Below the pieces are notes generated by a model. It made no database searches. It was given only the letters and a program-made list of their open reading frames with translations, and was not told the origin of the DNA. Both the position numbers and the translations under genes were made by a program. A DNA stretch of 64,000 nucleotides from Leucothrix pacifica (GTDB lineage Bacteria; Pseudomonadota; Gammaproteobacteria; Thiotrichales; Thiotrichaceae), in assembly GCF_003172875.1 (NCBI RefSeq), contig NZ_QGKM01000006.1:1-64000 (forward strand), given 5' to 3'. This document shows, piece by piece, positions 9,285 to 46,563 of the stretch; within the stretch, counting starts at the first letter, position 1, and each line of letters begins with the position of its first letter.

Positions 9285-9301
9285 TGCTATAATCCTTATA
9301 T

Positions 9302-23655: not shown

Positions 23656-26600
23656 TTACTCGTCGATTTTTACGCGATAACTCACTGAGCCACCAGCACC
23701 ACCTGATAATGTACCAGTGAAAGTCCAGCTCAGGCTATCATCTAAACCTAGCGGGCTGGCAACACAGGTCATTCCTAATATGACAGCGCCACAATCTGCT
23801 GAGCCAACCATCTCCGTGTATGGCGGTACTACATCATTAATCACAAGCTCAGTCAGTGGCCCTGTTCCGCTATTAACATAGTAAACACGATACTCCAGTG
23901 TATCACCCGGCTCTGCTGAGTTAACTGTTTCAGTTTCTGGTGTTCCCTGATCAATGTTGCGTACCGTTTTGCGTAATTCCAGACGAGAAGGTCCAAGCTC
24001 AGGAACAACTGGTGTCGCGGCTACCGGAAGCTGTTCTGGCTCCGGATCAGTCTCAGGCACATATGGCGTGTCAGGCACTTCAGGAGTTGTTTCAGTTGCC
24101 GGCACATTAGGTGTCGCAGGCTCTTCAGGTTGCGCAGGAACAGCAGGCTCAGGTGCAACTACCGGAGTTGCCGGTAGTGTAGGCGTCTGAACTTGCTGCG
24201 CTGTCGTCAGATCCTTAGCCAATAAAGTCTCTGTACCTGCTATCGCATTATTGTAATCAAATAATGCAGTGATCTCTTGCAAGTAGCTATCATTGGCCGC
24301 AACGTTTGAAGGTGCGTACACTTTATTAATAATACACACACGTCCTCCGGCAGTAACACCAACAGGATCACTTTTCCACGTGCTGTTAGGCTTCGTGATC
24401 GAAGGTGTTAGCGAAGATACTCTGCCACTAGTTCGGATTATGGTTGAGACTTTTTCACCTTGCATCGGTGCCGACCCTTCAGCGCCATCTAACTTGCCAT
24501 TACAGTTAGTGTCTTGATAAATCAGACTTGCCCAACCCGTCGTGGCGTTGTTTCCAGACACGCTGGTGAAACTTACCGTGCCTTGAGTCGGCGTGCTAAA
24601 GCGATGCGCATAGAACAACACATTGCCCGGCAGAATTTGACTACTATTGTCCGGCTCAAACACAGGTGGCTTAACTTCACCAAAGTCTTTATCTGTTATG
24701 TCACTGGTTGTGACATCAAAAGCAGGGGTGACATTCACAGTCGTTGATCGATATCCCGCAGGGTCTTTAGCGAAAGCCACACCACAATTACGTGGCGATG
24801 GTACAGCCTCACGTGACGCTTCATACACCTGATAGTTACCAGCAACAACATCTTCGAATACATAGTCGCCATTACCATTAGTGCGAGTACTGACACAGGC
24901 TTGATTCGCAGTGTCATACAACACAACGGGTAAGCCTGTTACACCCACTTCACCTGCATCATTCGCAGCATTCACATTGATGTCTCTGAACACTCGTCCA
25001 CTCACTGAGACACCGGCAGTCGTGATGGTAATTGGATAATCCTCTACCTCACCATCCAGCTTAGGACCATACGGTTCTCTGTTGTTCAATGAGTCTGTGG
25101 TTAAACGAACACGCACATAAGTATCACCTTCCTGAATATCCAGAGGTATATTAGACCAGTTCAGCGTAATATTCGCACCAGAACTACCTGCAGATACCGA
25201 ACGTATAGCGGCCTCGTCAGCGTCGAATTGTCCGTTACGATCAAAATCAATCCAAGCAATTAACGTCGCTGTCTCACTTGTGCGATTAGTTGTTCTGGCA
25301 GTTACACTGTAAGTACGGTCACTAGTAGTCAGCGCTCCAAACGTTGCAATACCATCTTCATCAGCACCATCATTAGTGGCGGATGAGCTTGGTTGACCAT
25401 CATTATCCACATCGGGCTTTGCGCTGCCTAAGTAGACATCATTAATCACATCATGACGCGCCCCATCCGAGATTAGTGTTGTTTGATAACTGCCCGGCGC
25501 ATCACCATAATCCTGACCTGCGATCGTTGCTACCGCCGAAAACTCAGACGTTCCGGTCCCAGCAATCGTTGCAGTGGCTGTCACTTTATCGCCGATTTGT
25601 AAGGAGCCAGGTAAAGACATTCGCCACTGGAATGGGCTCATCCCACTCGCATCATTTCCATCAGAATCAGTTAGACCGCCACAGTTCACTGCAGGCAAGG
25701 TGCTATCTTCTCCCACCCCTTCTTCAAAGGTAGCGATGTAAGTTTCACCTTCTCCATAGTCCTGAGTCTTACCGAATGTATTATCACCAACACTCGCGCC
25801 ACTGCCAGAACCAGAAGATACATCAGCCTCAAAAAGCTCAACCGTTGAACCCGTTGGCGCACAACCCTGAATAATCAAGTCAGAACCGGAGTGCACTGCC
25901 CGCGTAAACTGCGGGAAGTTGAGTCCAGTATTAGGGCCACCATCAGAATCATTAGCGTCATTTAATGTGACCTGATCCGGGCTACCGTTTGTCGTATTAT
26001 GCGAGATATCGATGCCCAGCTCACCATTGTTGTAAATGCTGTTTTGAGTAATCGTGGACTCTACCCCGAGGCCAGCCGCACGCAGTTGCACCGAGACACC
26101 GGCGTTCAGGTTGTCATAAATCACATTCTTTTTTACCGTGGTGTTAGTCACCGTATTCCGTAAACGAATACCCGGTCCAAAGTTGCTATGCAGTGTATTA
26201 TTTTCGATAACAGAATTCGCAGACACCTGTGCATTGCTCGCAGCGCCGAGTTCAAAACCTGCACCGCCACTACTGACCGAACTATTCGAAGAACCATTGT
26301 GATGCATCAGGTTACCAATCGTGGTCCAAGTACCACCGGCATCCACTGCATCCTGTCCGCTGTTGCTTAATACCAAGTGATGTAACTCATTACCGGTTAA
26401 CAGATAGGTTCCACCTGTATCATCCGCATGAATACCACTGTTTTCAGAGTAAGCGATTAAGTTATCAAGGAACTCAATATTCGGTGGGGATGTGAAGTCT
26501 ACATCGTCATAACTACGACCCAAACGTTCACCCGCTCCGGGATCCGCTCCAGTTGCACGAGGCCCGAGGTAAACATTTTGAATCGTCAACTTAGTCGCAG

Positions 26601-29600
26601 CGGTTAAACCAACACCACCCTTATCAATAGTCGCACTCGCCCTGTCTGTGTCATAGATCGCAAGACGCGCAATCAGCACTTCGCCTGCACTATCAACTCT
26701 CAGACCACTAAAGTCATTAGCGTCAATTTCAACTTCGGGCTTTTGATACTGTGGCAAGGTCAAACCATCAACACCAACGATACCACCGGTGCCCATTACG
26801 CCTGCATTAGTATTACCAATATTGCTGGTCTGCGTGCCTGCATCTACCGCAGTGCTTGAGCCTGTAATGATCGGTAGAGCTGTGTCCAATTCGATGGTCG
26901 CGACCCCTGAACTCAAGTCAGCAGCTGGAATCATAAAGATAGATGTTTCCCAAGTAGCTGTTTGACCGACTTGTGCCAATGAGGCCTCATCGGTCAGTAA
27001 ATTACTGTTGAGAATAAACTGACGCAGCGAACCTTGGCCATTGTCATTTGCATTGACGATAGTATCGAAGTTATAACCAAAATCGATACCCTCAATATCC
27101 GCCCCTGCTAGGGTGACAGATGTAACTGACTGTGATTGACCACCATCCAAAGCACCACCTGTAAAAGCATAGCTAGACGTGTCCAGTGTTGAAGGACTAG
27201 TCACATCGTGTGCTGTGGTGTCGCTCAGTGATGGTTGGCGTCCACCAACCTCTGCAGTGACATCTGTCGTCCCGTCACTTCGGAATGTCTGCACAGCCAA
27301 TTCACTGCCGTCTGATCCGCTCCTCGTCGAGTTCACAGAATCGCTCACAACCCGCACATGGTAATCACCGTCGATCAATGCTGTAAACTCATAAGCACCA
27401 TCAACACTGCCATTATTAGCAGTGGTCGTGTTTGCAATGAATGTACCGGATGCATCATATAATTCTACGGTTGCGCCATTGACTCCGGCACCGGATGCCG
27501 AGGTTTGATCTCGCCCTGCTCCACCACCGTAATTGATATCTTCAAATATGACACCCGTCAATTTATGAGTCGCGGTTACTGTCACAGCATAATCTTCAAC
27601 TTCACCATCGAGTGCAGCCAATGTGGAGCGCTCATCTATCGTCTCGGTCGCAGCCTCATCACTCAGTACATTTGAGGTTAAACGTAAACGTGCATAGGTC
27701 GTCCCAGCGGCCATGATATCAGTGAATGTCCAGTCCAGATCAGTCTGAACAACACCTGCAATTACATCTGCGCTTGCAAATTCATCTTGCTGGTATGCAC
27801 CGTCGCCATCAAAGTCGATCCAGGCTGTTAGTGTACCGTCACCAGTCGCAGCAATGTCAGCAGCTGCTATCTGGTAAGACGTCATCGCGTCGGTTAACAA
27901 TGGGAAACTTGATATAGCATCATCGGATGCATCATCAGCAGCCAATGTACTGACCACATCTGGCGTCACTGTTGCACCTAATTGAATGCCGCTGAGTAAT
28001 TGATGAGTCGCCTCGCCATAAGCTGAAGCTGCAACTGTCCCATTCGGTGTATCCAAACCATCTGCCAAACCATCTGAATAGTCAGTCGGGCAGACGTAAT
28101 TCAATAGCGTTGGACGACCATAAGCCTGTGTTGGATCAAATAATGTTGTGTAGACATACACCACACCATCAGATGGGTAAGTTACTGGAATATCGAAACT
28201 TTCACCGATACCTCCACCGCTTGCATAGGTATAAACGAAATCAGCTGAACTTAGAACATTACCCGCTTCATCTTCTATCCAGTAAGCAGAATACTCGGCT
28301 CCGCCATTGGTATCGTAAATGACCGTTTCAGTGGTTCCCGGCTCACCTTCCAGACGGAATATGGTCGCATGGTACTCTGCTAAATGACCACTATCCGTTC
28401 GTGCTGTGGCGCTTAGATTATTACCCACGCGAGTTGGAATGCTTCCGGTGATCGTTTCCAGAGGAGTACCAAAGGAAGAGATAATTTTACCATTTGACTG
28501 ACGTCTCAAAGCGGTAAAGGCATATGGGTCATTTTGCACACTGCCAGAATTAAAACGTATATCATTATCATGCAAGGTACCCGCTGCGGCTGACTTCCAA
28601 CCACGCGACACAAAACCTCCACAGACGCCGGGACGCGTCATGATATCCGGCGTATTATCAAGGACAGTGATGGCATAATCTTCAACTTCACCATTACTTG
28701 CAATTGAAGCAGGCGTGTTAGCGTTAATGGAGGGATCGGAGGTGAAACGGAAACGCGCGAACGTTATATCGTTAGCACTTAGCCCAAAGTCGGGATTACC
28801 TGCCAAACCATCCAACGCCCAATTTAATGCTCCAGCTGAACCACTTGATACCAACGTACTGCTGTGCTCATCCGGATCAAAAACACCATTACCATCAAAG
28901 TCTATCCAAGCATGTAAGGTACCAGATCCGACCGCTGTAATATCAGCGCTTACAATTGAATAAGCGGTATCACCTGCCACAAGCGTCGGTAACAGTATGC
29001 CGTCTTCATCGTCACTACCGTTTAAGTCATCACCATTTGCTAAGTTGCTGTCTTGATAGCTCGCATCAATATCAGGGTCACTGCTACCCAAACTCATGCC
29101 AGAAACCACCGCATGCTGCGTAATACCATAATTATTTGTACCGGAACCGCTTGGTGCTGTACCGGATAATGGCGCATCACCATAGTCGAAGCTTGAAACC
29201 AATCCGATTGCTGAGAACTCTGATGTACCCACCGATGCTACTGTTGCTGTTGCAGTCAGTTTGTAATCCAGTACGACATCAGTACCCGCAGGCAAACTAC
29301 TCAGTGCAAATGTTTCACTAAACGCCAACATACCCGTCGGGTTGTTGTTATCCGCATCAACATTTAATGCACACGCAGTACCTGTGGCAGGTATAGTCCA
29401 TGACCTCAGGAAGACTTCACCTTCACCATAATCCTGCGTACGCCCGAATTGATTGCTACCGGTAGCCTGACCGCTCGTTGAGCTTGGCGATACATCCGCT
29501 TCAAACAGCTCAACAGTAGACCCCGCTGGCGCACAACCCGCAACCGTTAGATTGCCACTGATAAGTGTGACTTGTGAGAACTGAGGGAAATTTAGGCCGT

Positions 29601-32600
29601 CATTCGCTGCACCAGCATCAACATCACCGGCATCATTCAGCGTGACATTATCCAAGTCAAGATCAATACCCAACCCTGTATTGGCATACATCACATTTCG
29701 GCTAACTGTATTGTTATTGGCACCTGCTCCGAGAATTGTGACCGCATCACCTGTGTTATTGGCAATAATGTTTGCGTCATTAGCACCACTACCGCCAACC
29801 ATGGCACCAGATGTATTTTGGATAATCACACCACCATTGGTATTACCCATCGCCGTGGTACCATCCAGTGCCACACCAATGCGATTGTTTTGTATTGTGT
29901 TATTAGTGGCAGTACCACCAAATATCCGGATACCGCGATTCCCATTCGCACTGATGGTATTGACACTGACATCTAAATTAGCAGCAGCCGTTCCCACATC
30001 AATACCATAGGTTGTATTACCGCGTGCAGCGGTTCCCGCCTCATTCAATCCGATCAGGTTATCAGTGACCGTAGTATTCGGACTATTCACCAGATATATA
30101 CCACGGGTACCATTTGCAGAGATGATGTTGTCCGTGATCACAGCGCCATCAGTTGCCACCGTTTCAACACCTGACTGACCATTACCCGCAGGACTATCAG
30201 CATCTGACAATAAGCCCACTACGTTGTTCTCAATTAAAGCATCAGAGACAGCTCCCACAACAAAGACACCGATCACACCATTAGCAGAAATCACATTGCG
30301 GTCATTCACTGCACTACCACCGATTTCTACATCAGCAGCATTTTGTATATAAATTCCGTGTAATGAATTCCCTAAACTTGACATGCCGCTAGTATCAACA
30401 CCAATGTAGTTACCTTTGACTGTTGTACCACCAGAATTGGTTATGCGAATACCACTGATATCATTGGCAGCAATAACGTTTCTACCCGCTACGGTACCGT
30501 TACCGACAGTTGCATTGGCGGTGTCCTGGAAGAAAATACCATTATCCTGATTACCCAGATCACCCGTACCATTGATATCAACACCAATGTAGTTACTTAG
30601 AATACTGACGGTGTCAGTTCCAAAGCGTGAACTGAATCCATCTTCACCATTGGCAGAAATCACATTGCGATCAGCAACCGATCCACCCACGGTGATGTCA
30701 TCAGTATTAAAGCTGTAGATACCTGCTCCTGAGTTACCCAGTGCAGCTAAACCATCTGCATCCGTACCTATAAAGTTACGCTTGATATCGATGGTATCAG
30801 CCGTGTTCAAGTAAATACCGTCAGTGGTATTTGCCGGAGCTGAACCAAAGGTCTTGTCATTTCCTGAGATCAGATTATCAAAGATATTAATATTCCTGGC
30901 ATTCGCTATCGCAGCTACACCACCATACTGCGCACCTTCCGTATTATTTGAGCGTGCACTTGTTCCACTGATATCTGTACCGACATAGTTATATCTGACT
31001 AGTGCTGTATCAACACCGTCCAAACTAATCCCGTGACGCGTATTTCCTGACACGAGATTTCGCTCCGTGTCACTGCTACCACCGATAGTGATATTCGTCG
31101 CATCTTCTATCCAAATACCATGTAAGCCATTACCACTGACAGTATTACCGTCAGCCTCCATACCTACGTTGTTACAGGCAATCAGAAGATTATCAGCATT
31201 TGCACTTCCGTAAATACCTTGCTCACTAAACTCTCCAATCGCGAAACCCCGAATAATGGCATCACTAGCATCGATGCTCAGACCTTGCTCATTCACACCG
31301 GCATTTGTTCCATCGAGTTGAACCTGCAAACTGCGTGATCCCGATACACAACTAGCGCCTTGCTGAGTAGTGGCATCCAAAGCGGTGAAACTATCCGTTA
31401 CGGCTGGCAGGCCTGAAATCGGACTGATTTCATGCACACCGGTGCCCGGAATTTCGAAAATTGATGTCTCGACACCTGGTGCCGGATCCGTTGCCCCATC
31501 AGCAGGGTTATCAACCTGATCTAAACCGGTGTTATCGAGGAGATTACTGTTTAAGATGAACTGACGTAAGGATCCTTGCCCAGCATCATTTGTGTTAACG
31601 ACGGTGTCAAAGTTAAAACCAAATTCAATCTCAGAAACATCAGAATTAGCCACTGTCACAGCCTGTATTGACTGAGCTTGCCCCCCGTCTAAACTGCCTC
31701 CGGTAAAGCTAAACGTTGTGGTATTGAGTGTGGAAGGACTCGCAGCATTGTAAGCCGCTTCATCAGCAACAGCCGGATTCCGACCACCTACTTCATTGCT
31801 TGTATCAGTTGATCCATCCGAACGGAATGTTTGTACGGCAAGCTCACTGCCATCAGCTCCACCACGTGTTGAGCCTACAGTGTCATTGACGACACGAATG
31901 TAATAATCGCCACTGTCTATATAATCGAAGCGGTACGTACCATCTGCGCTGCCGTCATTGGCAGTCGTCGTACTACTCAGGAATACACCAGTATTATCAT
32001 ATAACTCGACGGTTACACCGTTGACGCCAACACCTGACGCCGATGACTGATCACGACCAGCACCACCACCATAGTTAATGTCTTCAAAGACCACACCACT
32101 GAGCACCTTTGGGCAGCTATAGTCTTCAACGGTTGTCTTTCCGTAGTAAGAAGACGGATCGAATAAACTTCCGTAAAGATATACGACGCCATCAGCAGGG
32201 TAAGTAAAGGTCAGTGATACTTCTTCACCATCACCGCCGTTCACTGTGGTAGGAACAGAATAAATAAATTCATTGGAATTGGTTAACACTGTTCCCGCAG
32301 TGTTCTCAATCCAGGCATAAATATTATCTGCACCACCCACCGCAGTGAATTTCACAGTATCGGTAGTGCCTGCCTCCCCATCTAAACGGAAAACAGTGAG
32401 GTGATACTCTGATTCCTGACCGGGTTGTCCGACAGCAATCTCGGACAGTTCTGTACCTGCTTTGCCTGGAATCGCGCCACTTAGTGTTTCGTCCGGCAGC
32501 CCAAATGAAGTCAGAATACGACCTTCAGCATCTCTGCCGAGACCCGCGTAAACATAGGGGTCTTTAAGTGGATCGTTACTACCAAACAAAATATTGGTAT

Positions 32601-34323
32601 TGATATTAGGACCCGCTGGCGTTAACCAACCCGCATGATTATAGAGACCACAACTACCCGGTCTTGCAACAAAATCAGGCGTACCTACCGCGAGCTGATA
32701 ATCTTCCACTTCACCGTCACTTGCAGAGGTAGCCGCATCAGCATTCGTTAACGAATCTGAAGTCAATCTAAAACGAGCAAACGTTTTCCCGATGCTATTT
32801 GTATTTTGTCCGCTCCAGATTAAATCATTTGCAAGCGTACCAGCGCTCACTGAAGATAATGCGTGTTCACTAGTATCAAACAGACCATTGCCATTAAAAT
32901 CGATCCACGCATGCAAGGTACCACTTCCAACCGCTGTTATATTACTAGCTGGCAAGACATAATTGGTGTCACCAGTCGTCAGGGTTGGAAATCCAGATAC
33001 GCCGTCATCATCGTTATTACCATCACTATCATCACCATTTGCAGTCGGTGTTGCCTGGTTATTCGCATCAGAATCAGGCAAACCTGCCCCCATAAAAATA
33101 CCAGAGACAATACTGTGTGATGCTTCACCATAGGCATTCATTCCGGAACCAGACGGCGCTGTTCCGGTTAGTGGCGCATCACCATAATCTGTCGCGCATT
33201 GAGTACTCGATAATTCAACATTATCCAAGGTCACTTCAGCAGTTTGTCCACTGCTTCCTAATCCATTTACGGTACAAAAGCCCGAGGTATCAGGATTACA
33301 ATAGCCCCCGTTATCCTGATAAAAATGTCCGTAGTTTGTAAAACTAATCACCGTGTTAGTCGTGGCTGCCGTAAACTCTACCGTATAGCTTTTAACTCCT
33401 TCATTACCAGGCACTTCGACATGGATGTAGTCGCCATTTATATCTAGTTTCACAATCCCTGAAGGTCCATTGCCACCCTCACCTTTCACGGTAAAACGCG
33501 CTCTATAGGTTTGACCGACCACGGTGGGTACTGCCTGCGATAAACTAGGGGCTGAGCCACCGTAATCACAGCAGTTACTGGTAGACCCGGGTGTAGAGCC
33601 GCTAACACCAGCAAGGTCATCACTGGCGTCACGAATTTGGATAAAGCCAGGGACATTCGTCGCTTCACCATCGGCTGTAAATGTAAAACCACTGGTCAAA
33701 GCCGGATAAACTCGTTTAACGCCACCATTGCCAAAGTAAGCACTGTTTCCGGAAACTGAGCCTCCACCGCTGTTAACAGCAGCATACGTATCAGTCCCTC
33801 CACCAGCGGCAGTCCATCCATTAATCGTCCCGGCACCAGCCCGGTTTACCCCCCAAAAAGTACCAGACACCGTATCTTCAAAATCACCATTAACCAATAC
33901 ATTCGGACAGGACAAGATAGGAGCATTAGGTACAATAGTTATTCCACCGGTAGGTTGTGTAACAGCCGGCAGCGGTGTCACTGATGAGCTAGCTGACTCA
34001 TCACCAACACCATCCCCTGGAGTTGAATCTGGATCGAACACGCTTGATTCGATGACTTCGGCTCTGTTGTTATAATCACCGGTTTCAAGCACAGTTGCGA
34101 CCACATCCATAGTCACAGTTGCGCCCTCTGCCATGTAGCCAATATCCCACTCACCGGATAATGGATCATAACTACCTTGGGTCGTCGTATTCGACTTGTA
34201 ATCATATCCCGATGGCAGCAAATCCAAGACCTTAACCAAATCGGTATTATCAGGCCCCTGATTAGTCACCGTCACTCTGAATGTTGCATCATCACCGATC
34301 ATTGGAGCGCCACCAGATGTCAC
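23656..34323 (-). CDS. Giant DUF11/GEVED/SdrD-like/beta-helix surface protein, 3' fragment of a broken gene
   Basis: An open frame of 3555 codons. Domains by residue: DUF11 (1-110), a carbohydrate-binding-like beta domain (140-375), GEVED domains (about 378-545, 1714-1884, 2081-2247, 2940-3100), SdrD B-like modules (about 740-850, 2250-2370, 3104-3211), CSLREA-like NDxGQGSLRQFILNSN (about 918 and 2438), two right-handed beta-helices (about 965-1560 and 2540-2775), a Pro/Glu linker (about 3375-3440) and a final DUF11 ending SVSYRVKIDE. It is an adhesin-like exported protein. It has no signal peptide because the 5' end is separated by a frameshift at a G7 run (34379-34385) and an IS element. 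The frame continues upstream of the GTG at 34323 to that run, so this start is not real. Confidence 0.85.
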   Translation of the reverse strand: MTSGGAPMIGDDATFRVTVTNQGPDNTDLVKVLDLLPSGYDYKSNTTTQGSYDPLSGEWDIGYMAEGATVTMDVVATVLETGDYNNRAEVIESSVFDPDSTPGDGVGDESASSSVTPLPAVTQPTGGITIVPNAPILSCPNVLVNGDFEDTVSGTFWGVNRAGAGTINGWTAAGGGTDTYAAVNSGGGSVSGNSAYFGNGGVKRVYPALTSGFTFTADGEATNVPGFIQIRDASDDLAGVSGSTPGSTSNCCDYGGSAPSLSQAVPTVVGQTYRARFTVKGEGGNGPSGIVKLDINGDYIHVEVPGNEGVKSYTVEFTAATTNTVISFTNYGHFYQDNGGYCNPDTSGFCTVNGLGSSGQTAEVTLDNVELSSTQCATDYGDAPLTGTAPSGSGMNAYGEASHSIVSGIFMGAGLPDSDANNQATPTANGDDSDGNNDDDGVSGFPTLTTGDTNYVLPASNITAVGSGTLHAWIDFNGNGLFDTSEHALSSVSAGTLANDLIWSGQNTNSIGKTFARFRLTSDSLTNADAATSASDGEVEDYQLAVGTPDFVARPGSCGLYNHAGWLTPAGPNINTNILFGSNDPLKDPYVYAGLGRDAEGRILTSFGLPDETLSGAIPGKAGTELSEIAVGQPGQESEYHLTVFRLDGEAGTTDTVKFTAVGGADNIYAWIENTAGTVLTNSNEFIYSVPTTVNGGDGEEVSLTFTYPADGVVYLYGSLFDPSSYYGKTTVEDYSCPKVLSGVVFEDINYGGGAGRDQSSASGVGVNGVTVELYDNTGVFLSSTTTANDGSADGTYRFDYIDSGDYYIRVVNDTVGSTRGGADGSELAVQTFRSDGSTDTSNEVGGRNPAVADEAAYNAASPSTLNTTTFSFTGGSLDGGQAQSIQAVTVANSDVSEIEFGFNFDTVVNTNDAGQGSLRQFILNSNLLDNTGLDQVDNPADGATDPAPGVETSIFEIPGTGVHEISPISGLPAVTDSFTALDATTQQGASCVSGSRSLQVQLDGTNAGVNEQGLSIDASDAIIRGFAIGEFSEQGIYGSANADNLLIACNNVGMEADGNTVSGNGLHGIWIEDATNITIGGSSDTERNLVSGNTRHGISLDGVDTALVRYNYVGTDISGTSARSNNTEGAQYGGVAAIANARNINIFDNLISGNDKTFGSAPANTTDGIYLNTADTIDIKRNFIGTDADGLAALGNSGAGIYSFNTDDITVGGSVADRNVISANGEDGFSSRFGTDTVSILSNYIGVDINGTGDLGNQDNGIFFQDTANATVGNGTVAGRNVIAANDISGIRITNSGGTTVKGNYIGVDTSGMSSLGNSLHGIYIQNAADVEIGGSAVNDRNVISANGVIGVFVVGAVSDALIENNVVGLLSDADSPAGNGQSGVETVATDGAVITDNIISANGTRGIYLVNSPNTTVTDNLIGLNEAGTAARGNTTYGIDVGTAAANLDVSVNTISANGNRGIRIFGGTATNNTIQNNRIGVALDGTTAMGNTNGGVIIQNTSGAMVGGSGANDANIIANNTGDAVTILGAGANNNTVSRNVMYANTGLGIDLDLDNVTLNDAGDVDAGAANDGLNFPQFSQVTLISGNLTVAGCAPAGSTVELFEADVSPSSTSGQATGSNQFGRTQDYGEGEVFLRSWTIPATGTACALNVDADNNNPTGMLAFSETFALSSLPAGTDVVLDYKLTATATVASVGTSEFSAIGLVSSFDYGDAPLSGTAPSGSGTNNYGITQHAVVSGMSLGSSDPDIDASYQDSNLANGDDLNGSDDEDGILLPTLVAGDTAYSIVSADITAVGSGTLHAWIDFDGNGVFDPDEHSSTLVSSGSAGALNWALDGLAGNPDFGLSANDITFARFRFTSDPSINANTPASIASNGEVEDYAITVLDNTPDIMTRPGVCGGFVSRGWKSAAAGTLHDNDIRFNSGSVQNDPYAFTALRRQSNGKIISSFGTPLETITGSIPTRVGNNLSATARTDSGHLAEYHATIFRLEGEPGTTETVIYDTNGGAEYSAYWIEDEAGNVLSSADFVYTYASGGGIGESFDIPVTYPSDGVVYVYTTLFDPTQAYGRPTLLNYVCPTDYSDGLADGLDTPNGTVAASAYGEATHQLLSGIQLGATVTPDVVSTLAADDASDDAISSFPLLTDAMTSYQIAAADIAATGDGTLTAWIDFDGDGAYQQDEFASADVIAGVVQTDLDWTFTDIMAAGTTYARLRLTSNVLSDEAATETIDERSTLAALDGEVEDYAVTVTATHKLTGVIFEDINYGGGAGRDQTSASGAGVNGATVELYDASGTFIANTTTANNGSVDGAYEFTALIDGDYHVRVVSDSVNSTRSGSDGSELAVQTFRSDGTTDVTAEVGGRQPSLSDTTAHDVTSPSTLDTSSYAFTGGALDGGQSQSVTSVTLAGADIEGIDFGYNFDTIVNANDNGQGSLRQFILNSNLLTDEASLAQVGQTATWETSIFMIPAADLSSGVATIELDTALPIITGSSTAVDAGTQTSNIGNTNAGVMGTGGIVGVDGLTLPQYQKPEVEIDANDFSGLRVDSAGEVLIARLAIYDTDRASATIDKGGVGLTAATKLTIQNVYLGPRATGADPGAGERLGRSYDDVDFTSPPNIEFLDNLIAYSENSGIHADDTGGTYLLTGNELHHLVLSNSGQDAVDAGGTWTTIGNLMHHNGSSNSSVSSGGAGFELGAASNAQVSANSVIENNTLHSNFGPGIRLRNTVTNTTVKKNVIYDNLNAGVSVQLRAAGLGVESTITQNSIYNNGELGIDISHNTTNGSPDQVTLNDANDSDGGPNTGLNFPQFTRAVHSGSDLIIQGCAPTGSTVELFEADVSSGSGSGASVGDNTFGKTQDYGEGETYIATFEEGVGEDSTLPAVNCGGLTDSDGNDASGMSPFQWRMSLPGSLQIGDKVTATATIAGTGTSEFSAVATIAGQDYGDAPGSYQTTLISDGARHDVINDVYLGSAKPDVDNDGQPSSSATNDGADEDGIATFGALTTSDRTYSVTARTTNRTSETATLIAWIDFDRNGQFDADEAAIRSVSAGSSGANITLNWSNIPLDIQEGDTYVRVRLTTDSLNNREPYGPKLDGEVEDYPITITTAGVSVSGRVFRDINVNAANDAGEVGVTGLPVVLYDTANQACVSTRTNGNGDYVFEDVVAGNYQVYEASREAVPSPRNCGVAFAKDPAGYRSTTVNVTPAFDVTTSDITDKDFGEVKPPVFEPDNSSQILPGNVLFYAHRFSTPTQGTVSFTSVSGNNATTGWASLIYQDTNCNGKLDGAEGSAPMQGEKVSTIIRTSGRVSSLTPSITKPNSTWKSDPVGVTAGGRVCIINKVYAPSNVAANDSYLQEITALFDYNNAIAGTETLLAKDLTTAQQVQTPTLPATPVVAPEPAVPAQPEEPATPNVPATETTPEVPDTPYVPETDPEPEQLPVAATPVVPELGPSRLELRKTVRNIDQGTPETETVNSAEPGDTLEYRVYYVNSGTGPLTELVINDVVPPYTEMVGSADCGAVILGMTCVASPLGLDDSLSWTFTGTLSGGAGGSVSYRVKIDE

Positions 34324-34858
34324 AATCTTTTCAAGGCTGAGATCAGCACGCGCAAAATCGATAGTGAATGCACCAGCGCCCCCCCGTCATGCTGATAAGT
34401 GGGACTACTTGCACCTTGCAAACTAAATGAGTTAATACTGCCCAAAGCTGGGCCATTTCTGAATTGCGCGGTCAAAGAGTACCCATCAGTCTCGTTATAA
34501 GTGGGAACATTCGATGGGAAATGACCGTTTGGATTATTGACTACTAAATCCAATACTGAACTAAATCCAGGCATTGTTGCGTATGTTTGGCTAGCAGAAT
34601 ACGAGAAGCCATAAACGAGTAATCCACTCTTTGGGTCATCTATCGCCTGGCCTGCATCTAACGCAGCACTTGATAAAACAAAATTCCCCGGCTGAGGTGG
34701 TTGCGACTGAAAAGCCCACCCAGAACGAACGATTCCGGTGTTTGTGTCATTTACATTTTCAAAAACAATGGCAATTAACGAAGCCTCATCACCCGCTGAT
34801 GTCGGAAGCTTTATATCGCCAGAACTTAAATTCAGGTTTCCTGAGGCACTCCCGCCTA
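34324..34858 (-). pseudogene. Middle fragment of the broken giant surface-protein gene
   Basis: The frame is open from the IS boundary (34858) through 34386 and encodes a beta-rich stretch (SASGNLNLSSGDIKLP, then IVFENVNDTNTGIVRSGWAF, PGFSSVLDLVVNN). At the run of seven G residues it goes out of frame and stops at 34320 after ISALKRL. Reading eight Gs instead gives GAFTIDFARADLSLEKIVTS, the classic lead-in to the DUF11 domain of the 3' fragment. The fragment therefore belongs to the same gene. Confidence 0.85.
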
Positions 34859-34875
34859 GGCTCCGTTGACGTTTT
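34859..34875 (+). repeat. IS left terminal inverted repeat
   Basis: GGCTCCGTTGACGTTTT, an exact inverted copy of the right end at 35677-35693. The match extends to 20 bp if the flanking CTAG target bases are included. Confidence 0.93.
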
Positions 34876-34923
34876 CCAAGCAGATTATTTGAATGATAAA
34901 ATGACTGCTATTTAACCAGCTAT

Positions 34924-35160
34924 ATGAGTATAGAAAGAGCCACAATCAGTGATAGAGAATGGGAGTTGATTACCCCAGTATTGCCAACACTACCCAAAGT
35001 AAAAATCGGAAACCTGGATAAGTGCAGACAATTTATTGGCGCTGCTTTATGGGTTTTACGAGGAGGAATTGAATGGCGTATGTTGCCTCCCGAGCAAGGC
35101 AAGTGGAATAGCGTATTCAAACGATACTCCCGCTGGTGCGCTCATGGGGTGTGTTATTGA
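34924..35160 (+). CDS. IS5-family transposase, ORF A
   Basis: A 78-residue N-terminal transposase part: ISDREWELITPVLP, the DUF4096-type start of IS427-group transposases, then LWVLRGGIEWRMLP. It carries the DNA-binding region; the catalytic residues are in ORF B. The two frames overlap at 35136-35160 and differ by -1, which fits the group's usual production of the full transposase by frameshifting. Confidence 0.92.
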   Translation: MSIERATISDREWELITPVLPTLPKVKIGNLDKCRQFIGAALWVLRGGIEWRMLPPEQGKWNSVFKRYSRWCAHGVCY

Positions 35161-35678
35161 AACATTTCTCTCAACAAGCTGATCTACAGGATGTTTCCAT
35201 AGATGGAACAATCAATCGTGCTCATGCTTGTGCCGCAGGTTACGAAAAAGACTCGGCTTTCCGAGAAGCATTGGGACGCTCGAAAGGTGGACTTAGTTGC
35301 AAAGTACATGCTATTTGTGACGCTCACGGTTTGCCGATTAACTTCATTTTGACCGGAGGCCAAGCAGCAGAATGTACCCAAGCGATTTCACTGTTGACAA
35401 ATGTAGGAGCAAAGGCAGTTCTGGCCGATAAAGCCTATGATACCAATGAACTCAGGGACTGGCTGAAAGAGCATGAAGTAAAGGCAGTCATTCCTCCCAA
35501 ATCGAACCGGAAAGATGAAATTCTCTGCGATTTTTGGCACTACAAAGAACGGCACACCATTGAATGCCTGTTTGGAAAGTTGAAATACTATCGTCGAATC
35601 TCAACCAGATATGAGAAAAAAGCCATAAATTACAAGGGCATGCTTTATTTGGCATCTGTCTTTTTATGGCTTAGGTAA
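35136..35678 (+). CDS. IS5-family transposase, ORF B (DDE catalytic part)
   Basis: A 180-residue C-terminal transposase part with the DDE residues in place: D in DVSIDGTINRAH, D in AVLADKAYDT and E in ERHTIECLFGKLKYYRR (the Y-2-R-3-E-6-K region). The first codon of the open frame is GTG at 35136, but the product is probably made by -1 frameshift from ORF A. There is no stop or gap within the frame, so the element looks intact and possibly active. Confidence 0.92.
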   Translation: MRSWGVLLKHFSQQADLQDVSIDGTINRAHACAAGYEKDSAFREALGRSKGGLSCKVHAICDAHGLPINFILTGGQAAECTQAISLLTNVGAKAVLADKAYDTNELRDWLKEHEVKAVIPPKSNRKDEILCDFWHYKERHTIECLFGKLKYYRRISTRYEKKAINYKGMLYLASVFLWLR

Positions 35679-36221
35679 AACGTCAACGGAGCCTAGCAAA
35701 AATTCAATCTCACTCTCATAAATTGCGAAGTGATAACTTTCTCTTGATATAAAAGCACCATTACTCCCGGTACTACCCATATAGTTTCTTATCATTCTGA
35801 GAAATCGCAAATCACCATCAGGAAACACAAAGGGATTGGTTTTATTCAAACTTCCACCTGCACCGCTAATGATCATATTAGTTTGGTTATCATCAATAAC
35901 GTTGTTAGCAAAGTTATCGGACAGTAGTGGCGAATCAACATAACACCCCGCTGCAGTATCATCAGCTACAGAACAATGCTCTCGTTCGAAATGACTGATG
36001 ATGAATACCGCCCGGTTATTACCTTCCGGCACGTTTACAGTTAATGAGGGAATACCTGATGCACCTACTCCGCTGGCGCTGGAGCTAGCCTGATTGATCA
36101 CTGTTACTTCATACTGGGCGAATGCCGATGAAGCCATCAACAGAAGTGTTAAACCCACCAAGCTTAGGAACTGGATAGATCTGCTGATACGGGAAAATAA
36201 AGTCGGAATATGGTTTAACAT
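35664..36221 (-). CDS. 5' fragment of the giant surface-protein gene, cut by the IS
   Basis: About 185 codons. It has a signal peptide (MLNHIPTLFSRISRSIQFL, hydrophobic core, cleavage near SAFAQ at about 36) and then a mature N-terminus with beta-rich sequence (YEVTVINQ, IPSLTVNVPEGNN, AVFIISHFERE). Native coding ends at about 35694; the last residues (GSVDVLPKP) come from the IS. The open frame runs to 36467, but the ATG at 36221 starts the signal peptide and avoids the terminator and the upstream gene. The predicted product is a truncated exported peptide, probably non-functional. The intact ancestral gene would encode about 3,900 residues. Confidence 0.85.
   Translation of the reverse strand: MLNHIPTLFSRISRSIQFLSLVGLTLLLMASSAFAQYEVTVINQASSSASGVGASGIPSLTVNVPEGNNRAVFIISHFEREHCSVADDTAAGCYVDSPLLSDNFANNVIDDNQTNMIISGAGGSLNKTNPFVFPDGDLRFLRMIRNYMGSTGSNGAFISRESYHFAIYESEIEFLLGSVDVLPKP
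35677..35693 (-). repeat. IS right terminal inverted repeat
   Basis: AAAACGTCAACGGAGCC, the exact reverse complement of 34859-34875. It overlaps the last bases of ORF B. Confidence 0.93.
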
Positions 36222-36403: not shown

Positions 36404-36432
36404 AAAAAGGGAGGACTATAAAGCCCTCCCTT
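36404..36432 (-). terminator. Terminator between the 902-residue protein gene and the giant gene
   Basis: An 8-bp stem (AAGGGAGG at 36407-36414 with CCTCCCTT at 36425-36432) and a 10-nt loop; on the minus strand the last stem bases run into TTTTTG. It suggests that the giant gene has its own promoter in 36222-36403 or is expressed by partial readthrough. Confidence 0.8.
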
Positions 36433-36459: not shown

Positions 36460-39168
36460 CTACTCAACCATCACACCAAAGACCAATGAGACTGATCCGC
36501 CGGGGTTAACATCTCCGGCACTTCCTTCGACTAATCCGGTATCACCCTCTGCCGGACTCTGAACTATGCTACCTTGTGTGATGGTTGGTAAAGCACCGCC
36601 ATCCGTGAAGTGACTGGTAAACTCAGGAATCGCATCATCAATTCGTACATTCTTAGCAATACTTGAACTAGTGTTGGTTGCGGTTAGGTTATACAGCACA
36701 CAGGTTCCCGGCTGAGCCTGAAATGCATCAAAGCTAAACACTGAACCACCATCAACATCTCCGTCACAATTCACATCCGGTGCTTGCTGTTTAGTGATGT
36801 TCATATTACTCATCGCAACAAACGTCATGTCCTGAGCTTTGACTGTGATGTTTACTGGCGTTCCGGCATCGGTAGTACCAATTGCGGTAATGTCTGTTAA
36901 GTTATGTGCTCCTAATGGTGCATTGGCCGGTGCAAACACCTTTGCAAAAATGGTTTTTCTCTCACCGATACCCAAGTCAAAACTTCCAACAGGCAAGTCA
37001 CCAGCACTCAACACACCATTACCGTCAGTATCTTCATACAGTACCGATGTCCAACCATCACCAGCCAATGTATCGGTGCTGGTCATATTGATTCCGGTAA
37101 ATACCGTATTGCCTGAGTTATGGATATCATGCGTATAAACAACACTGGATCCTGGCTCAACCTGAGCGCGATTATCTGGTTCAAGAATCAGATTTTGAGC
37201 AGCGGTCATGTAGACAGCGTCATGTTTAATATCACTCGCCTGAGTCAGAGGAGACTGCACCCTGAAATAAATACTGACGGCGTTGCCACTAAAATCAGCA
37301 TTTTTTGGCAAGGTTATCTTGGCACAAATTAACTTGCTGTCACCCGGCGCAATCAGCGCTGTATTGTTAACAACCGGGCCAAGCGTCGAACAGTTCGTCG
37401 CACCGGCATCGATATGAAATGCCACTCTCCAGCCAGCAGGAGCTGTACCGGCGACAAATGGGTTATCTTTACTGAACGTCAGATCAAAACTATCTGCAAC
37501 AGTACTGGTGTTATTTACATAAAGCTTGAATACACCCGACTCTCCTGGCGCCAGAATCAGTTGCGACTGAGCATTAGTCTCTGGCCCCGGGCCAACACCT
37601 AAAACACCGGCACCACCGATTGCTGCCACATTAGTAAGATCAACCTCGCTACCGGTGATTTCATCTAAATGATCAGTTACCGGATTAGAAACACTTGGAT
37701 CGTTTGCCGAAATCGCGGTCTTAGTGACATCAAAGCCCGCCCCACCATTATCACCGACAGCGCTGCCAGTCATTGGTAACTTCGCTTTCAGAACGACCGT
37801 ATAAGATTCACCGGGATCCAGTGGTCCGGTATCGACGACACTTGAGTTATCGGTATCAAGCAAAGGTGTATAACCATCACTGTGATACAAAGTAAATGTT
37901 GTGCCTGTCGGGAAGGTAGATCCAGCAGTATCGACGCTGATATCAAACGTATCGACTGAGTTACCACGGTTCCAGATGACGTTATCAAATGCTACGGTAC
38001 TGCCTAACGTAGCGGTGGTTTGAGAGACCGGTTCATCGATACCCTCAGCATCATTGGTAGTCGAACCGTTAGCAACCACCCCTGGCTCTGCAATCACTTC
38101 CAGAGGGACTTGATTCGTTTTTTGATCCGTAATCACTACAGCACTGTTGAAATACTGGAACTCTGCTGTATTTAACAAAGTAGAGGCTTCTAAAGTTGAG
38201 TCAAGTGTGACATCAAAACTAATTGTACCGCTGTCACCTGACACTACCGTTGCAATGATTGCAGTCACTTGGTTAGTACTTAGATTATCAGCGTCCATTG
38301 AGGCCTCAGCAAGGCCTGTACAGTCTGCATGGTAGGCGCAATAAATAACCGTGTCTGCACCAATACCTTGCGCGTCGGTTTTGTTATTGTCTGTCAAAGC
38401 AACACCAGAACCTGTCAGGCTCCACTCACCACTGTTTGCGACATAGTTCATGCCTTCAGGTAGTGCATCTATCAAAATTACATTTGAAGCATCTGATGTA
38501 CTCTGATTACTGTAGGTCAGTGTGACAGTGTAGGGGCCGCTCCCAGCTTCGCCGCTGTTAGAGCTGATACTCTTTGTGACTTGAATCACAGCTTTGTCAG
38601 AGACGATTACCTCATCTGCATTGGTCTGGCTTGCACCACTAAAGTCGCTCACACCTTCGACAAGTAGGTCAGCGGTTTGAGCATCCGTGGCGCTATCTGG
38701 CACTGTAGCGACGACGACAAAGTAAAACGCCTCTTCACTCGCCAACACTCCGGTGTCTGTAATTGGTGTCAGACTGTCTGCCACTCCATCCTGATTGACA
38801 TCCGGATAAATAGTGATGTTAGTAAGATCGTAATTATCCCCAGTAAGATTGCTCGCATTCAAGGTGAAGGTATCATCACCATTACCTGTATTGGTTAATA
38901 CATGAGGGAATGAAACAAGCTGTCCGGCAATGCCATACCGTGATTGATCGGACTCCAGGATAAATGCGCCGACCTGTTGAATAACCGTCTCTACCAAATT
39001 TGAAGTGGCGGTTTGTTCTATACCGGCAGAATCCTTGTAGGTAGCCGTTGCCTGATTCTTGATAATAGTTCCGGCAACTGGTGCTTTAGCATTCACTGCA
39101 CCTGACACTAATAGTAAAAACACCATTAGGTAGTTGATAAACTGATGACTTTTTTTATTTTGATTCAT
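36460..39168 (-). CDS. Exported DUF11-repeat surface protein, 902 residues
   Basis: A secreted or surface protein with a signal peptide (MNQNKKSHQFINYLMVFLLL, cleavage after VNAKA). A start module AGTIIKNQATATYKDSAG (about 30-48) matches the other large proteins of the cluster. Several DUF11-like domains follow (for example VIQVTKSISSNSGEAG, ALPEGMNYVANSG), with D-rich calcium-like loops (YPDVNQDGVADSL, DTDGNGVLSAGD). It ends with the penultimate module PDNRAQVEPGSSVVYTHD and a C-terminal DUF11 module (DDAIPEFTSHFTDGG). The frame is open to 39207, but the ATG at 39168 gives the signal peptide. Partners and ligand are unknown. Confidence 0.88.
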   Translation of the reverse strand: MNQNKKSHQFINYLMVFLLLVSGAVNAKAPVAGTIIKNQATATYKDSAGIEQTATSNLVETVIQQVGAFILESDQSRYGIAGQLVSFPHVLTNTGNGDDTFTLNASNLTGDNYDLTNITIYPDVNQDGVADSLTPITDTGVLASEEAFYFVVVATVPDSATDAQTADLLVEGVSDFSGASQTNADEVIVSDKAVIQVTKSISSNSGEAGSGPYTVTLTYSNQSTSDASNVILIDALPEGMNYVANSGEWSLTGSGVALTDNNKTDAQGIGADTVIYCAYHADCTGLAEASMDADNLSTNQVTAIIATVVSGDSGTISFDVTLDSTLEASTLLNTAEFQYFNSAVVITDQKTNQVPLEVIAEPGVVANGSTTNDAEGIDEPVSQTTATLGSTVAFDNVIWNRGNSVDTFDISVDTAGSTFPTGTTFTLYHSDGYTPLLDTDNSSVVDTGPLDPGESYTVVLKAKLPMTGSAVGDNGGAGFDVTKTAISANDPSVSNPVTDHLDEITGSEVDLTNVAAIGGAGVLGVGPGPETNAQSQLILAPGESGVFKLYVNNTSTVADSFDLTFSKDNPFVAGTAPAGWRVAFHIDAGATNCSTLGPVVNNTALIAPGDSKLICAKITLPKNADFSGNAVSIYFRVQSPLTQASDIKHDAVYMTAAQNLILEPDNRAQVEPGSSVVYTHDIHNSGNTVFTGINMTSTDTLAGDGWTSVLYEDTDGNGVLSAGDLPVGSFDLGIGERKTIFAKVFAPANAPLGAHNLTDITAIGTTDAGTPVNITVKAQDMTFVAMSNMNITKQQAPDVNCDGDVDGGSVFSFDAFQAQPGTCVLYNLTATNTSSSIAKNVRIDDAIPEFTSHFTDGGALPTITQGSIVQSPAEGDTGLVEGSAGDVNPGGSVSLVFGVMVE

Positions 39169-39257
39169 TATACAAGCCTGTTTCTTAACGTTTACGCGTA
39201 TCCCCACACCCGTTCATCGAACCTTGCACGAATGCAAGGCCGATGATCTTAGTTTGC

Positions 39258-40037
39258 TTACTTCACAGGGAACGGTGCATTAAAGCTGGTTGCCTTAGGT
39301 TGAACTGCCAGACTCAATGGTCGTCCACTTGCATCCAACAACATCAACTCAACTCTTCGGTTAATGACGCGTTCCGCCTTCGTGTCTCCCAGAATTGGTA
39401 ACTCTTCACCCAGTGGTGATACCAAAATCCGATCACGAGACAGCCCCTTATCCATGAAGTAATCAACAACGGTCTGCTGACGTCTTAATGCCAGCTGTCG
39501 ATTGTATGCTTGTGAGCCTTTACTATCAGTGAACGCCTGAACACTTAACTTCAATGATGGGTTTTTCTTCAACACCAACATATCGCGGTCCAATCTAGCT
39601 TGCTCAGAAGCATTCAAGCTGGATAGATCAAATCCGAAGTAAACGGCCGGCTCCCAAATTTCTCCATGAACAGCCTGCTTGACGTACTCTACCTTGTTTA
39701 CAACCTTAACTTTCTCAACCACTTTGATCTTGGTCTCAGGGACCATGACGCGCTTAACCCGGTCAACATACTTGATCGTTTCAACCGGCTTAATCTTTTC
39801 GACGATCTTGATCTTCTCCACTGGTTTGATCTTTTCAACAACTTTGACCTTCTCAACCACTTTCTCTTTCTCAACGACCTCCTTGACGATTTTTACGCGT
39901 TCAACCACTTCTGGCTTTGGCAGTTCACACACGTCTTCATATTTTGCGTAAAGATCATTCGTGCTGGCACAGCCACTGGCTAAAGTAATCACACCGGCTA
40001 CAGGCAAGATACGCTGAGCTAATTTATGACATTTCAT
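39258..40037 (-). CDS. OmpA-family outer-membrane lipoprotein with Val/Glu/Lys repeat linker
   Basis: A 259-residue protein. A lipobox-like LASGC gives Cys23 as the acylated residue. Residues about 41-120 are a linker of hexads such as VVEKVK, VVEKIK, PVEKIK, IVEKIK, PVETIK, YVDRVK. The C-terminal OmpA-like domain (about 130-250) has VYFGFDLSSLNASEQARLD, VQAFTDSKGSQAYNRQLALRR and ERVINRRVELML, the peptidoglycan-binding signature. It starts 2 bp after the 2126-residue barrel-protein gene, so the two are coupled and probably work together, the lipoprotein tying the barrel or fibre to the cell wall. Confidence 0.9.
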   Translation of the reverse strand: MKCHKLAQRILPVAGVITLASGCASTNDLYAKYEDVCELPKPEVVERVKIVKEVVEKEKVVEKVKVVEKIKPVEKIKIVEKIKPVETIKYVDRVKRVMVPETKIKVVEKVKVVNKVEYVKQAVHGEIWEPAVYFGFDLSSLNASEQARLDRDMLVLKKNPSLKLSVQAFTDSKGSQAYNRQLALRRQQTVVDYFMDKGLSRDRILVSPLGEELPILGDTKAERVINRRVELMLLDASGRPLSLAVQPKATSFNAPFPVK

Positions 40038-40039
40038 TA

Positions 40040-43000
40040 TTATTTTTCTCCTGTCAGCCAGTTCAGGCTATTTTCATCGAATTTATACTTCAGGCCGATG
40101 TACAGACCTTCGTCGTTATAATTTTCGGGATCAAGATCTTCATCCTCAAATCCAGTCACGTTATAACCAATACCCGCGCGAAGATTCTTTCTTACGAGGT
40201 AGTTAATACCAGCACCAAATGAGTATTGTTGCTCACCCATACCATCGGTAGCCAACACACCTGCATGAACATCAAGGTCTAAACGATTAGTTAGGTCATA
40301 AGTAAGACGTCCATCCAGTACAACTGCATCACTCTTAACACCGTCACAGTCTTCAGTTTTTCCACCTAAACGACCTGATAACAGTACGTCTTCGTTGATC
40401 TCATAGTTCTGATGCGTAGACAATATATGTGTACTACAGTCGCCGTTATCACCAGCACGCTCTTCTTTATTTTGATAGAAGAACAAAGAGTGTTGCTTGT
40501 TATCACGACGTGGGCGATATGCAAGGCCCAGCGTAAACGTGTTATCCATCAAGTCATCACCCGACTCTGGTAACTCATAGCGCAGCGTATCTTTCATTAA
40601 TACACTCCATTTTGAGTCTAAACGCTTTACGTAGTCTGCCTGCAGACCATAGTACTCACGGTCATCATCATGTCTTGTCTCAAGGCGTAGAGATGCAATT
40701 TGATCCGTTGAACGCTTATCAGTAATAGCAATAGACGCAGCCACAGAGTCACTACCATCTCCATCCAGGTTATTCACAATCTCCAGGTGCGGAGATATGG
40801 ATAAGCCCTCGGCCAGCTCATAGGTACCTCTGACCCCTGAAGCTGTTTCAAGATCACGCGAGTCAATTCCACCACGTACGCGGTACTCTGAGAAAAGCTC
40901 AGTTGATTTCAGGAAGTTTGACTTCACACCAATTGCAATGGTGTCTTGCTCATTGGTTGTTGAAGAAAGTCCACTCACACCTGAGAGGCTATTGATGCGC
41001 TCTCCCCGTGCATACAACTTTACTTTTTCATGAACCTGAAGGTCACCCGTCAACGCGATGCGACGACGATCAGAACTGTCAAAGTCCTGCTCATACTCAG
41101 CCGCAACAGAACCCTTTCTACCGGCGATATCCAGATTCTTCTTTATACCGACAATAAAGGTTTGGAACTCTTCATCTCCTGTCGTCTTCTCTTGCCTAAT
41201 GTGACGTACACCACCTTTTATATTCCAGTCTTTAACATCCATATCAGCGGTTACACCAATACTCTGCTCAAGATCATCCGTATCCAGCATCTTGCTGTGT
41301 ATTGCCTCAATCTCAGCATTCAGATCTTCGTAAATCTTCATCTCATGTTTAACACGAAGCTCTTCCCTGTTTTCAGCTATGCCTGCTGCAGAATTTATAA
41401 AGCCATCGCTGGCACGCCCCAGAGTGACAGTCGTTAATGACTTATCTTTCCACTCTTTAGCCATGTATAGACGTGTAGCAACACCAGAATCATTACTTAG
41501 ATCCCGGTGAGACATACGACCAACACTTCCACGAACCTCAAAGCCGTCATCATTTTTATATTCAGCCGTCACACCGTATAACTCGAAACCTTCGGAGTCA
41601 TGCTGGTTAACAGTGTAGTTCAAACCTAATTTAAAGCCTGGCGCTACTTCACTGCTCAAGCGGGCACCCGCAATGGTGTAGTCATTGCCATCACCCTCTA
41701 CATCGTAAGTTGCACGGATGTAAACAGGATTCAGGTCTTCATCTGAAATTGGCACTGTCTCGCTAAAGCTCAACTCGCCGGTCACAAAGTCCAGAGTGTA
41801 ATCACCAAATCTACTCAATGTTTCTGTCGTTAACACAACGCCTGGGTTATCACGAGAGACAGTGATGATCTCAATAGTTTCACTGTTGATCACCAGCGGC
41901 GCTTTCTCTAGCTTGTAATTCAGAGCGACGCCCTTTCCGCGAATACGATCGACGTAATTCTGCTCATCAAGCTCAGAGACAAATAACTGTGCTTCAACCG
42001 GGCCACTTTTCGTGACTAAGTTCGCACCAGTGAGAGTACGTTGAACACGCGTGACATCCTCATTCATAGAGTTGCCATCCGTGACAAAGTCACCCCACAT
42101 GACGCTATCTTTGTTCTTCTCCAGCTTAGCGTAAACCTTACTCCGGCTCTGCGCCTCATAGCCACGCTGTGAACTGTCTCCGTGAATTGGATACGACTTA
42201 TTTGGATTAATGTCGCGGAACAGTTGAGCATCATCTTCCTTGTCTGTATCTACAGACATTGTGAGATGCATATCACCACGAACCTTACCCTTTAAGAAGA
42301 ATGCTGCACGAGAGTCAACATCATCTTCAAGACCAGCATATGGAGAGCTTGATCCGCGATCAAACAGATGCCCGCCAACTTCAACTAAGCCGATTGCAAC
42401 CAGCGGTCGTAACGGAGCAACCTGAATTACATTCGTTTCAGCTCTCATAGATCCGTCACTAACACGAACCTTGATCGTTCCACTTCGCTCAGAACTTCGT
42501 AGGTGAACCGTGCGTAAACCATTTACAACACGCACTTGTCGTCCCTGTACCTGGTCCTGAACATCACGCTCAACCCACTGTCCGTCACTTGCTTCCAGAG
42601 TGACGAAGTTAACCCCTCGAGCCAAGTATCCATTAGCATCCAGTAGTTTGATCGTTACTGGCAAATAGGAACGTCCACCATCAGCCGGAAGTTGATCAGT
42701 TCGCTTTTCTAAAACTAACTTCTCTGCAGACACCGGACGATTAAAGGTACCTTTGGCCAGTACGCGTCTGTTTCCAAACATGTCTTTAGCCACAACCTCT
42801 AACTCATTCTTTCCTGGTTGCAACTGAACACCGTACCAAGCAGCTACTTGGGCTCTTTCACGACGATTCTCAATTTGCTCACCTAGCTGAGACTTTGGAA
42901 CCGCTTTACCATTAAGCATCAATGTCGGTGTCAAGCCTTTACGAGTCACAATCATGAAACGACCATCCAGGCTAACATTGCCTTTTGGCCACAGCCATAC

Positions 43001-46420: not shown

Positions 46421-46483
46421 TATTGACTACCATTTTTATTATTTTTATAACTCCGGGCTGCGGAGCAAGCAAAAAGACGGTTT

Positions 46484-46522
46484 GCTTCTGAATGCTCCCG
46501 CCAGGCAGAAGCATTCAGAAGC
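46484..46522 (-). terminator. Terminator between the 987-residue and 2126-residue protein genes
   Basis: A perfect 13-bp inverted repeat (GCTTCTGAATGCT at 46484-46496 and its complement at 46510-46522) with a 13-nt loop. On the minus strand it is followed by AAACCGTCTTTTTGC, a T-tract. A further small hairpin CTCCG/CGGAG lies at 46451-46465. Confidence 0.75.
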
Positions 46523-46546
46523 CCTCTCACCATATTGGGCGAGAGG
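46523..46546 (-). repeat. Second hairpin in the same intergenic gap
   Basis: CCTCTC (46523-46528) pairs with GAGAGG (46541-46546) around a 12-nt loop, just after the stop of the 987-residue gene. With the adjacent 13-bp hairpin it gives two stacked stems, which could tune readthrough or protect the 3' end of the transcript. Confidence 0.5.
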
Positions 46547-46563
46547 ACGTCAGGTTCAACTGA

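Follow-up and report, generated by a model that had tools for sequence, protein, structure and literature searches.

A very large minus-strand gene of Leucothrix pacifica, ~3,900 codons in length, is very probably a recently inactivated fibrillar-adhesin-like gene that was broken by an insertion sequence (IS) and by a frame change at a run of guanines. The gene lies in the 64,000-nucleotide stretch of DNA analysed here (contig NZ_QGKM01000006.1, positions 1 to 64,000; hereafter, the window), which is part of a 104-kb contig in a draft assembly (5.02 Mb, 146 contigs) of a bacterium whose family includes Thiothrix. Two breaks, one due to an 835-bp IS5-family element and one to the frame change at a run of seven G (G7), give the following arrangement:

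35697-36221, minus strand: piece 1, with an ATG at 36221; first half of the N-terminal domain, homologous to the N-terminal domain of Thiothrix proteins
34859-35693, plus strand: IS5-family insertion sequence, 835 bp, recognized by its terminal inverted repeats and Pfam domains; transposase on the strand opposite to the giant gene
34323-34859, minus strand: piece 2; second half of the N-terminal domain, with homology ending just before the G run
34379-34385, minus strand: G7 run, the point where the reading frame is lost
23656-34386, minus strand: piece 3, 3,576 codons open from stop to stop; a body of DUF11, GEVED, SdrD_B and beta-helix/NosD domains, 78% identical to an intact body in the congener G003

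Structure of the giant gene and its lesions

A preliminary description of the window had proposed a gene in three minus-strand pieces, and both the start codon at 36221 and the open frame from 34386 to 23656 bear this out. The N-terminus of piece 1 resembles a signal peptide (by eye only), and the frame of this piece continues for ~10 codons into the IS, where it reaches a stop. When the IS is disregarded, the flanking pieces share one frame (...EIEFL / LGGSASGN...); together with the terminal inverted repeats of the element, this confirms the earlier proposal that an IS5-family element separates two frames that join. The last ~20 codons of piece 2 are out of frame. The remaining 10.7 kb, also described previously as open, indeed form a frame that is far beyond chance, with ~190 stops expected at the base composition of the window; Pfam domains in this part comprise four stretches of GEVED, three of SdrD_B, one of DUF11 and two of beta-helix. 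An anchor domain was not found in piece 3 (Pfam, E-value 0.01), a signal-peptide-like stretch was not seen by eye at its start, and the genome yielded no further copy of the N-terminal domain (E-value <= 0.001). All three lesions, two in the gene and one in the IS, fall within the N-terminal 1.9 kb.

In the history that we propose, the N-terminal domain would have received an IS5-family element at a CTAG site and would additionally have been hit by a one-base frame change at the G7 run; the IS would at some time have lost its own transposase frame via a net deletion of 7 bp. Ribosomes that begin at the native start would reach a stop inside the IS, and piece 3 would start without a visible signal peptide (again by eye), so that no exported full-length protein is expected. 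The adhesin function, the order of these events and the lack of a product are all matters that we infer; judging by its sequence, the intact protein would have been located at the cell surface and would have mediated adhesion.

The N-terminal domain in relatives

Piece 1 matched 8 of the 63 genomes searched and piece 2 matched 5 of 57 (the source genome is included in both counts), with weak, short matches in G009 for both pieces and in G077 for piece 1. Five relatives were used for the comparison of the N-terminal domain, namely, G035, Thiothrix lacustris (G014), T. caldifontis (G007), T. fructosivorans (G075) and a Thiothrix metagenome-assembled genome (MAG; G070), the last two being outside the 57 genomes searched with piece 2. 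In all five, pieces 1 and 2 lie together in one open reading frame (ORF) of 1,713-3,130 codons, so that the separate, conserved genes that, according to the preliminary description, would speak against a broken gene were not encountered. The alignment of these relatives runs across the IS site without a break, and every one of them has the motif E.EI..LLGG..SG there.

At the G run, the similarity of piece 2 ends just before the run and resumes in the other frame for ~10 residues (GG-AGAFTI versus G.WAP.FT in four of the five relatives). Furthermore, an ORF of 787 codons from a Pseudoxanthomonas MAG (L062), which carries DUF11 domains, shows collinear matches to piece 1 (40% identity), to piece 2 (32%) and to the initial 100 residues of piece 3 (26%). 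The resumed similarity and this collinearity support the previous suggestion that the run is out of frame and that the gene continues in the DUF11 frame. A scan of genome contigs with piece 2 alone found no relative; a scan of named genomes with the Thiothrix alignment covered 128 candidate stretches and retained 8 loci. None of the 8 has a stop anywhere in the N-terminal domain (one, L057, extends beyond the end of its contig), and four of them are the same sequences as G-numbered family genomes. Because the N-terminal pieces share one long ORF in relatives, the pieces are parts of one gene.

The N-terminal domain consists of ~330 residues (window 34391-36221), contains a FERDHC motif (FEREHC in the window) and is common to Thiothrix, to three gammaproteobacterial MAGs (labelled Lysobacter, Lysobacterales and Pseudoxanthomonas) and to one MAG labelled Verrucomicrobiaceae, on bodies that differ. 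No Pfam match was obtained for this domain in the window or in 8 relatives; NCBIfam gave two weak matches in the 8 relatives (best E-value 0.064, one member each) and nothing convincing. Other sequence searches, which included the PDB, were no more convincing and gave two further weak matches. An AlphaFold model of the T. lacustris domain is of low confidence (predicted local distance difference test, pLDDT, 66.4; predicted template modelling score, pTM, 0.75). Fold matches to this model are poor: among the best 50 of 526, one has an E-value below 0.001, and the template modelling (TM) score normalized by the query is at most 0.26. These 50 are mostly viral jelly-roll capsids, with some lectins, and a partial match was seen to a baseplate protein of phage Tuc2009 (probability 0.72, TM by target 0.38). 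Given the uncertainty of the model and the poor matches, we made no fold assignment.

The gene body and the apparent timing of the loss

The preliminary description had called for an intact gene in relatives, and G003 has one of 3,880 codons, although with a different N-terminal domain. A 1,567-residue part of piece 3 matches this frame at 80% identity, and after a local-identity filter, 2,030 of the 2,608 residues in the two bodies are identical (78%). The nonsynonymous distance (dN) between them is 0.156, and the synonymous distance (dS) is saturated (2.65). In a relative-rate test with G035 as the outgroup, the window had 101 changes of its own and G003 had 83 across 1,728 filtered sites (binomial P = 0.21), a result to be read with the reduced sensitivity that the local-identity filter entails; acceleration on the branch of the window is not significant. 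Because the dN of the body is low and there is no significant acceleration compared to the intact congener, the loss of the gene looks recent, in line with what had been suggested from the open frame.

The giant gene of G003 (L085, G003:C1:3765500-3785400) has an N-terminal domain that is unrelated to that of the window and was found in 1 of the 63 family genomes, the only other match being a 291-codon frame in G003 itself.

The IS5-family element

The two parts of the transposase in the element are encoded in different frames:

34924-35157, plus strand: N-terminal frame of the transposase; Pfam PF13340 (DUF4096)
35136-35678, plus strand: C-terminal DDE frame of the transposase (DDE_Tnp_1), out of register with the N-terminal frame owing to a net loss of 7 bp adjoining 35143-35149 relative to the copy in the congener G006

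The ends of the element are perfect terminal inverted repeats of 17 bp that start with GGCTCC, or 20 bp if the CTAG palindrome found at either end is included. The element is flanked by TA on both sides, and given the CTAG palindrome, the target duplication is either TA (2 bp) or CTAG (4 bp); CTAG is present at both ends of the G006 copy as well. These ends, the length of 835 bp and the combination of DDE_Tnp_1 with DUF4096 are features shared with IS5-family insertion sequences, and plasmid relatives of the element carry the IS5 family annotation; the difference is the transposase frame, which in the window is broken relative to the G006 copy.

The window IS is the sole copy found in its genome (all 13 candidates were scored). 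Matches were detected in 7 of the 63 family genomes, the source genome included, in a search that scored at most 8 candidates per genome, so that further copies could be missed; the only other full-length copy is that of G006, with 843 bp, 80% identity and a transposase in one continuous frame. The aligned parts of the two transposases (74 and 170 residues) are 84% and 89% identical, respectively, with a joint dN of 0.074 and dS of 1.23. Because of this low dN compared to dS, we conclude that the IS lineage evolved under selection for a transposase. The window copy, with its broken frame, is probably inactive now. Some distant IS5 relatives on plasmids likewise match in two or three pieces, and programmed frameshifting is a possible alternative to a broken transposase frame.

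Alternative explanations

The G7 run itself is unremarkable, and the frame offset is what matters. The window contains one G7 run versus 2.54 expected in shuffled sequences, and a comparable run at this site was not found in the five relatives; the tract is neither longer than expected by chance nor conserved at the site. It is somewhat unlikely, yet to be taken seriously, that the frame change at the run is a sequencing or assembly error, such that the IS alone truly breaks the gene: homopolymer runs are error-prone on some sequencing platforms, and the assembly is a draft in 146 contigs. Against such an error, all 18 distinct window genes that passed the filter in comparisons with the congeners G002, G006 and G003 are in a single frame (identity at least 45%, E-value 1e-20; 3 of 33 rows contained stops and were excluded, being antisense ORFs or an upstream extension). 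Among 14 genomic G/C runs of at least 8, 8 lie inside open frames of at least 196 codons that read through the run, 1 lies at a frame break and 5 are outside clear genes; these frames were judged from the genome sequence itself, and reading through a run is no proof of its length. That the gene is phase-variable, with the G run switching an adhesin on and off, would fit the location of the run towards the 5' end of a gene for a surface protein and the presence, in the same genome, of G/C runs of up to 13, one of which splits a regulator gene. We nevertheless rejected phase variation and consider it extremely improbable, given that the run is not above chance in the window, that no comparable run is conserved in the five relatives, and that a change in run length cannot bring the product back as long as the IS lies upstream.

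The pieces could also function separately if piece 1 encoded a short domain for secretion and translation of piece 3 began at an internal start codon; in favor of this, no stop interrupts the remainder, and there is an internal GTG at 34323. Such a split is absent from all relatives examined, piece 1 is half a domain, and piece 3 starts without a stretch that resembles a signal peptide to the eye; separate functional genes were rejected on the grounds that relatives keep the N-terminal domain in one frame, and their existence is most unlikely. Nearly as improbable is the possibility that the damage removes only the tip domain, with the body kept as raw material for the exchange of N-terminal domains between giant genes. 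This is what the 78% identical body of G003 with its unrelated N-terminal domain, found in a single genome of the family's 63, and the confinement of all three lesions to the N-terminal 1.9 kb would suggest. Three lesions in one region, however, can be a coincidence, the tip of the G003 protein was not found in the window's own genome (no other tip was sought), and it is difficult to see how selection would maintain a silent stock. It would be a long shot to propose that the giant adhesins of the genus swap N-terminal domains on a conserved body of ~3,000 residues and that the gene in the window has been caught between two tips, with the old tip destroyed by the three lesions and the body intact and ready for a new fusion.

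Several observations weigh against the inactivation of a single adhesin-like gene by the IS and the frame change. The whole 10.7 kb is still open, which could mean continued use in some way; the frame at the G run could be an assembly artefact, in which case the IS break would remain. The LLGG motif at the IS site is absent from the weak relative G009, the Thiothrix relatives have GEVED beyond the G run where the window has DUF11, and the match of L062 to piece 3 is weak (E-value 0.001, 26%). Finally, the closest intact body, that of G003, carries a different N-terminal domain, so that no single relative matches the whole gene closely.

Relation to known systems

Pseudogenes in bacteria arise by IS insertion and by frameshift, and the case described here is a new example of this known kind of gene loss: both types of lesion are present in an otherwise open gene that is intact in relatives. 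In these relatives, the frame is continuous over the break points, as judged at the G run by the short Thiothrix similarity and the weak collinearity with L062. What differs is the very large size of the gene and the apparently very early stage of decay. Thus, the mechanism of loss is ordinary, and the case is a clean, early-stage one in the loss of a very large surface protein, given a congener with an intact body, Thiothrix with intact N-terminal domains and two congeners without the gene at the locus. A further point of interest is the N-terminal domain of ~330 residues, which has neither a Pfam family nor a convincing NCBIfam match and is found on differing bodies.

Fibrillar adhesins of the CshA type with GEVED stalks are described by Barringer et al. 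(2023; PMC10952558) as an N-terminal domain followed by stalk domains, with modular domain shuffling. The relatives analysed here resemble this arrangement in having the N-terminal domain followed by GEVED, and piece 3 contains GEVED together with other stalk domains. In contrast, the N-terminal domain of the window has no Pfam match that would identify it as an NR2 domain; it is followed by DUF11 first, an anchor domain was not found in piece 3, and the gene is broken.

The locus and neighboring genes

The giant gene is flanked by the following features:

36460-39207, minus strand: intact upstream DUF11 gene (915 aa), syntenic in two Thiothrix genomes and in the congeners G002 and G006
36407-36432, minus strand: stem resembling an intrinsic terminator, in the gap that separates the giant gene from the 915-aa gene (1 found versus 0.1 expected in shuffled sequences; a consensus match only)
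22299-23534, minus strand: downstream gene for a T2SSE-type ATPase, which adjoins the 915-aa gene in G002 and G006

No terminator was detected in a scan of the sequence that follows the giant gene. Orthologs of the 915-aa gene in the three congeners compared (G002, G003 and G006) are 64-75% identical and occupy open frames of 898-909 codons, with one or two stops counted within each match. In G002 and G006, this ortholog is followed, ~60 and ~180 bases on, respectively, by the ortholog of the 22299-23534 gene (90-91% identical), and neither genome has the giant gene here; in G003, the locus differs downstream of the 915-aa ortholog. The order of a gene like that for the 2,126-aa neighbor, a gene like that for the 915-aa protein and a giant gene is kept in two of the five relatives, T. 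lacustris and T. caldifontis, where the first two genes are 42-45% identical to those in the window and the OmpA-domain gene between them is missing. On the simplest reading, the giant gene was ancestrally present here, some congeners have lost it and its loss in the window is under way; possibly, the gene was instead gained in the lineage of the window by exchange.

Upstream of the giant gene, the region 36460-49527 contains a cluster of DUF11 genes (987, 2,126 and 915 aa) together with the OmpA-domain gene (39258-40037, 259 aa), partly syntenic in Thiothrix; the 2,126-aa protein has matches to outer-membrane barrels that are below the cutoffs. This might be a surface-assembly cluster.

Additional observations

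Elsewhere in the same genome, at L034:4530-5505 (G000:C130), a 13-G run at 9283-9295 separates the receiver domain of a response regulator from a DNA-binding domain of the LuxR type, with the two halves in different frames, which makes this gene a candidate phase-variable regulator or else a case of an assembly slip. Its best receiver homologs in G001, G003 and G006 are 45-47% identical and are encoded in open frames of 217-227 codons. Further G/C runs in this genome are located at G000:C83:43217-43227 (11), inside an open frame of 436 codons, at G000:C100:6407-6417 (11) and at G000:C141:14064-14073 (10). At the edge of the window, positions 1-267 on the minus strand correspond to the 5' end of a 16S ribosomal RNA gene.

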